Shown: positions 2,466 to 3,131 of the stretch, one piece after another
Layout of the letters: each line of letters opens with the position of its first letter
Position numbering within the stretch: the stretch's first letter is position 1
Assembly: GCA_015486015.1 (NCBI GenBank)
Contig: WFSL01000042.1
Coordinates: 1 to 24,555 of the forward strand
DNA length: 24,555 nucleotides
Direction of reading: 5' to 3'
DNA from: Aquificota bacterium
GTDB lineage: Bacteria; Thermosulfidibacterota; Thermosulfidibacteria; Thermosulfidibacterales; B14-G1
The notes under the pieces: generated by a model
What the model saw: the letters and a program-made list of their open reading frames with translations, nothing else
What the model was told of the DNA's origin: nothing
Database searches by the model: none
Program-made: the position numbers and the translations under genes

Positions 2466-2494
2466 TTTTTACCCTCTCTCTTTTGCATTGTCAA
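2466..2494 (-). promoter_or_regulatory. Promoter of the leuL-leuA transcript
   Basis: TTGACA (2494-2489), a perfect -35 box, is followed by a 17-base spacer and TAAAAA (2471-2466) as -10. Transcription would start near 2459, about 28 bases before the leader GTG. The -35 box overlaps the stop codon of the upstream peroxiredoxin gene. Confidence 0.7.
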
Positions 2495-3099
2495 CTCCCA
2501 AGCTGAGGCTTCCAGACTTCCCATACCTTGCCCACCAGATCAGGGCCTGGCTTTAATGTCCTCTTGCCAGGTCTCCATCCAGCAGGACATGCCTCTGTTC
2601 CAGCACTCTCACGCACGTGTTGGAATGCCTGGATCTGTCTAATTAGCTCCTCTACATTTCTACCTACGGGTGGAGCCAGGATCTCCATCGACTGGATCAC
2701 CCCCTCCGGGTCAATAATAAAGCGCCCTCTAATGTTTAGACCAAGGCTTTCATCATATACGCCATAGGTTTGGCCTATCTTCCCTCCTGGATCCGACAAC
2801 ATAGGAAACGGCACTCCCCCCGGCAGCATCTTGGAGAGCTCTGTCTCTTGCCAAACTTTATGGATGAAGGCGGTGTCACAACTGATGGCCAACACGTCTG
2901 TGCCCAAATCCTTCAACTCCTGATATTTGGCTGCGACCGCAGCCAGCTCTGTCGGTCAGACGAAGGTAAAATCTGCCGGATAGAAGAAAAGTACCAGCCA
3001 TTTACCTCTGTAGTCAGAGAGCCCCACCGGCTTAAACTCTCCCTCCATAAAGGCCTGACCCTCAAAGTCTGGTGCTTCCATAAGCGGTCTCAAAGCCAT
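2491..3099 (-). CDS. prxU: Selenocysteine-containing 2-Cys-type peroxiredoxin (UGA = Sec48)
   Basis: Thiol/selenol peroxidase reducing H2O2 and organic peroxides in the cytoplasm. Reading starts at ATG 3097-3099, five bases after AAGGAGGT. Codon 48 (2956-2958) is TGA, exactly at the peroxidatic position: the context is PADFTFV-U-PTEL, matching the AhpC/Prx1 motif PxxxTxxC. The frame then continues without a break to TAG at 2491-2493, giving 202 residues, normal for the family. Downstream are a conserved GRFIIDPEG and a resolving cysteine in [10 protein letters not shown] (about 171), so the enzyme would form a Sec-Cys bond. A SECIS-like hairpin starts 11 bases after the TGA. Gene callers would report only a 141-residue fragment from 2916. 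A nonsense mutation or sequencing error at this very codon is the alternative, but is unlikely given the hairpin. Sec machinery (selABCD) would have to be elsewhere in the genome. Confidence 0.92.
2928..2945 (-). promoter_or_regulatory. Bacterial SECIS element of prxU
   Basis: On the minus strand, GGCTGC (2944-2939), loop GGTC (2938-2935) and GCAGCC (2934-2929) form a perfect 6-bp stem, extended by one T-A pair. The loop starts 17 bases after the TGA, close to the spacing in E. coli formate dehydrogenase mRNA, whose SelB-binding apical loop also contains GGUC (from memory). I see no bulged U in the 5' arm. It lies within the coding sequence, as bacterial SECIS elements do. Confidence 0.85.
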
Positions 3100-3131
3100 T
3101 GGCCACCTCCTTGATCTGATGTTGTTGCCCT

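Follow-up and report, generated by a model that had tools for sequence, protein, structure and literature searches.

A predicted PrxU-type selenocysteine peroxiredoxin that keeps the resolving-cysteine position, from a thinly sampled bacterial phylum

Background

Peroxiredoxins with selenocysteine (Sec) at a TxxU site are listed among the known selenoprotein families in three papers, from 2006 (PMC1794560), 2022 (PMC9312934) and 2026 (PMC13188914), and PxxxTxxU is the published motif of the Sec peroxiredoxins (PMC13188914). All three papers cite a 2001 report of the first such enzyme, which, going by its entry as reference 83 in PMC13188914, is the description by Sohling et al. of PrxU of Peptoclostridium (Eubacterium) acidaminophilum. 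Many anaerobic bacteria are already known to have a PrxU. Given that Sec peroxiredoxins with a TxxU site have been published before, the gene that we describe here, which lies in a 24,555-nucleotide stretch of Thermosulfidibacterota DNA analysed as a whole (the window), is a fresh member of the PrxU family and not a new kind of gene; its less common feature is a partner cysteine that has been kept. It widens the range of this selenoprotein family to a sparsely sampled lineage, with nine genomes for the whole phylum. We consider it nearly certain that the gene encodes a peroxiredoxin of the Prx1/AhpC type, in which UGA48 would be read by the ribosome as Sec at the peroxidatic site, using SelB, Sec-tRNA-Sec and a downstream hairpin, and which would serve in peroxide removal in an anaerobe.

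Results and discussion

The prxU frame and its family identity

Translation of the minus strand from 3099 to 2491 gives a frame with a single internal TGA and, apart from Cys171, one further cysteine (C74). A sequence-only reading made beforehand had the coordinates, the motif, the 202-residue length and Cys171 all correct, and the ribosome-binding site that it described as normal could be confirmed as an AAGGAGG, 6 nt before the ATG (Table 1). It also held that the gene would be hidden by the TGA. This is true in so far as the standard-code listing of open reading frames, which does not allow for Sec decoding, leaves only a 141-residue frame starting at TTG, but the type of gene is not hidden, as NCBIfam contains a PrxU model and in P. 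acidaminophilum the full-length gene carries the annotation prxU.

Table 1. Features of the prxU locus and of the selD genes in the same genome
Feature	Position	Strand	Details and basis
prxU coding sequence	2491..3099	minus	202 codons, Sec48; stop TGA 2493-2491
Peroxidatic motif PADFTFVU, codons 41-48	2956..2979	minus	translation and family alignment
Sec codon 48, in-frame TGA, peroxidatic residue	2956..2958	minus	TGA in 85/85 family members and in P. acidaminophilum prxU
Ribosome-binding site AAGGAGGTG	3104..3112	minus	6 nt separating GGAGG from ATG
Predicted bacterial SECIS hairpin	2929..2944	minus	stem GGCUGC/GCAGCC (6 bp), loop GGUC at 2938-2935; folding and family covariation
Cys171 codon, EACPAGW	2587..2589	minus	aligned with AhpC/Prx4 resolving Cys (1we0, 3vwv)
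leuA leader region	2431-2275	minus	23-codon frame VKKIGLLLSLLLLKARPGAFREG, seven Leu codons
selD genes, Sec TGA in catalytic loop	L019 1486-2493; L020 from about 1342

The protein scores 345 bits with the PrxU model (NF040737 peroxi_PrxU), well above the equivalog cut-off of 270, and 205.9 bits with the AhpC model (TIGR03137), for which the equivalog cut-off is 272. Pfam recognizes an AhpC-TSA domain (PF00578; 8e-38) and a 1-cysPrx C-terminal domain (PF10417), and its nearest relatives of solved structure belong to the typical 2-Cys peroxiredoxins; an alignment to solved AhpC sufficed to place both the Sec and Cys171. With regard to the residues that define the two families, the TGA-encoded Sec of PxxxTxxU is present in the window as in the reference prxU. 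The peroxidatic Cys of a typical 2-Cys AhpC is absent, the codon being TGA and not TGC or TGT, and the resolving Cys of its C-terminal EVCPAxW motif is present, within EACPAGW.

Conservation of the TGA codon

A homologue scan covering about 85,000 species genomes gave 372 relatives, of which we took the best 80; these GTDB loci, four relatives from the same order and the window constitute the 85-member family set used throughout. All 80 loci and all four relatives have TGA at the position of codon 48 (with the window, 85/85). The titles of the best 80 loci name Thermodesulfobacteria, Deltaproteobacteria, Chloroflexi, Spirochaetes, Nitrospirae, Zixiibacteriota and others. A TGC was found at this codon in two alignment rows only, both distant paralogues, where the survey for Cys forms within the PrxU clade covered the best 80 matches of the 372 relatives. 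Within the same order, five of nine genomes contain a TGA-bearing relative.

The frame after the TGA shares 83% amino acid identity with that of a same-genus relative over 150 codons, with synonymous sites saturated, and between close homologues the codons after the TGA show a dN of about 0.01-0.03 against a dS of 0.2-0.8. The codons 3' of the TGA are thus under strong purifying selection. Considering the conservation of this downstream frame and the fact that the TGA is shared at the same codon by all 85 members, the frame is not a product of chance. A normal Cys-type AhpC in which TGC or TGT was misread as TGA might be suspected in a 43-contig draft, where a single base change would give Cys, but the TGA recurs in each of the best 80 homologues, taken from independent assemblies, and in the same-genus genome, so that sequencing or assembly error is rejected as having practically no probability. 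An equally negligible chance is given to a pseudogene with a nonsense mutation: in the standard code the frame is indeed broken by a stop, but the downstream frame is under selection, the ribosome-binding site and motifs are intact and the same TGA occurs across many phyla, and this conservation pattern led us to discard it.

The SECIS hairpin

The stem of the predicted hairpin begins 11 nt from the UGA and its loop 17 nt from it, and the folding energy is -12.8 kcal/mol. Loop, stem, spacing and energy all agree with the published rules for bacterial SECIS elements (PMC13188914). As an Rfam search of the window returned no SECIS match, the hairpin was assessed by these rules and by covariation. 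In the window sequence alone it is not decisive and only mildly unlikely given the protein, since 4.6% of codon-preserving shuffles attained its energy. In the 85-member set, pairing held in 470 of the 510 cells of the six-pair stem versus 395 +- 5 after shuffling, and in a thinned set (n=19) the paired fraction was 0.94 versus 0.79 +- 0.02. When the partner was shifted by one or two bases, pairing fell to about 0.3; a shift of -3 left it fairly high (0.84 versus 0.92), because the region repeats GCN codons. Stem pair 17-26, which joins third codon positions on both sides, occurs in the family as GC, AT, TA and CG, and nearly all members have either AGUU or GGUC as their loop.

In the element (columns 14-29, window 2944-2929), PTEL is followed by Ala, Ser or Thr, the codon of which has its first base in column 15; this residue tends to vary jointly with column 28, the middle base of the codon four positions further on. 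This co-change apparently keeps the hairpin paired, and the RNA may constrain the PrxU protein.

Sec-decoding genes in the source genome

The source genome, a 97% complete draft of 1.62 Mb in 43 contigs, contains selA (608 bits) adjoining selB (332 bits), a tRNA-Sec (selC; 83 bits), whose anticodon UCA lies within ACUUCAAAU, and two selD genes, both with a TGA at the known SelD Sec position (RASGUGAK and LGGGUGTK). With selA, selB, tRNA-Sec and selD all present, as the sequence-only reading had proposed to verify, the organism is equipped for Sec decoding. Besides prxU at least two genes, both selD, appear to use it; a search for a Sec formate dehydrogenase found none. One selD (L019) is preceded by an apparent cysteine-desulfurase-like gene and a TusA/YedF-like gene. 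Seven of the nine genomes of the order contain selA. In one draft (G007) a TGA-bearing PrxU relative is present (L027, 2055-1501) and selA was not found, which reflects either an assembly gap or loss of the machinery.

It is very improbable that some other residue is inserted at the TGA, through suppression or a change of code, or that termination there yields a functional short product. prxU itself terminates in TGA, so the codon has not been reassigned throughout and a code change is rejected; moreover, the full Sec apparatus and the location of the TGA at the catalytic Cys position of the family, with a SECIS following, argue against a residue other than Sec. The family score, the Sec machinery, the TGA in all near homologues and the covarying SECIS together bear out the original proposal of a Sec peroxiredoxin of the PrxU type.

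The resolving cysteine

Because Cys171 aligns with the resolving Cys of AhpC and Prx4, the selenenylsulfide cycle suggested on first reading is plausible for the window protein. Such a Sec-Cys cycle cannot be general in PrxU, as most TGA family members lack the Cys: position 171 is Cys in 18 of the 85, Thr in 58 and Met, Ala or Leu in the rest, and 63 of the 85 have no Cys anywhere after the Sec. The sister species and Thermodesulfobacteria also retain Cys171. A PrxU tree was computed with the position-171 column masked and AhpC as outgroup. A branch with 100/99 support has on one side the window protein with that of the sister species, three from Thermodesulfobacteria, two from relatives in the same order and the AhpC outgroup, all with Cys, and on the opposite side all Cys-less PrxU forms, with about seven changes in total; support for the inner nodes close to the root is modest, and the AhpC outgroup sits on a long branch. 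In the simplest reading of this tree, Cys171 would be a retained ancestral trait. Its alignment with the AhpC resolving Cys and its retention in the window branch suggest that the enzymes of this branch probably use both residues, Sec and Cys, and an intersubunit Sec-Cys cycle is likely in the window PrxU.

Alternatively, PrxU could be a single-Sec enzyme, in which Cys171 is uninvolved and an outside thiol directly resolves the selenenic acid, as in the relatives without Cys. This would fit the 67 of 85 TGA family members in which the Cys at position 171 is missing, the many members devoid of any Cys after the Sec, and the Ala that P. acidaminophilum PrxU has at position 171, but two observations speak against it: within an intact EACPAGW, Cys171 falls exactly on the resolving Cys of AhpC and Prx4, and it is retained in the sister species and Thermodesulfobacteria. 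We regard the single-Sec enzyme as fairly unlikely here. The two-residue reading in its full form is that the window PrxU belongs to a basal, poorly known branch that kept the ancestral resolving Cys after the change from Cys to Sec and would run an intersubunit Sec-Cys selenenylsulfide cycle, while most PrxU, among them the one that has been studied, lost that Cys and need an outside thiol; we put this forward tentatively, with somewhat less than even confidence. If true, the PrxU family would be a record of the stepwise loss of the resolving Cys after the gain of Sec. A comparison of PrxU with and without the resolving Cys could show how the recycling step changes once selenium replaces sulfur.

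Gene neighbourhood

The window prxU lies upstream of leuA, and the neighbouring gene that had been called an amidohydrolase does exist, its identity being that of a carbon-nitrogen hydrolase (PF00795). The position between the two had been considered unusual. However, the neighbourhood turned out to be variable, and the leuA/nitrilase position was rejected as a meaningful context. In a sister species of the same genus, prxU is found between NAD synthase and a redox-stress cluster, near genes for a flavin reductase, a rhodanese-MBL protein, a flavodiiron-like protein, ferritin and desulfoferrodoxin (superoxide reductase), which is a typical oxygen-stress set of anaerobes; the cluster (L118, 7732-14757) also has multihaem cytochrome genes. 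In another genome prxU is convergent with leuA. As leuA is preceded by signals of its own, namely a leader frame rich in leucine, a terminator hairpin and a promoter-like TTGACA, it and prxU are probably separate transcription units. The leader contains a 13-bp GC-rich hairpin with a T-run (2344-2313) and then a second hairpin, the leuA ATG being at 2239, and looks like a classical leucine attenuator.

Proposed function

Apart from prxU, no gene for an AhpC/Prx1-type peroxiredoxin was found in the genome, which has just one other AhpC/TSA gene and, elsewhere, a desulfoferrodoxin gene. We infer that the Sec selenolate would reduce H2O2 or alkyl hydroperoxides and thereby become a selenenic acid. 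By analogy with the AhpC/Prx1 mechanism, Cys171 of the partner subunit would then probably form a selenenylsulfide, which a thioredoxin-type reductant would open. The enzyme would thus provide peroxide removal in an anaerobe without any other enzyme of the AhpC/Prx1 type.

Comparison with known systems

The UxxC Prx-like thiol:disulfide oxidoreductases and other Prx-like selenoproteins (PMC9312934) have PF00578 and the use of Sec in common with the window PrxU, but carry Sec in UxxC or UxxU, whereas the window protein has PxxxTxxU followed by PTE and no UxxC. The AhpC/Prx1-type 2-Cys peroxiredoxins (PDB 1we0) share with it the fold family, an alignment over the full length, the position of the resolving Cys and a match to TIGR03137; they differ in that the peroxidatic residue of the window protein is Sec (TGA) and that its TIGR03137 score remains below the cut-off (206 against 272). 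An alignment with PrxU had been suggested on the basis of the sequence, and P. acidaminophilum PrxU (WP_084481301.1) is indeed 61% identical to the window protein, with the TGA at the same codon (in the context PGDFTFVU) and a hairpin-forming sequence at the same place. It differs by an N-terminal extension of about 36 residues, the window protein starting at model position 41, and by the Ala that it has where the window PrxU keeps Cys171.
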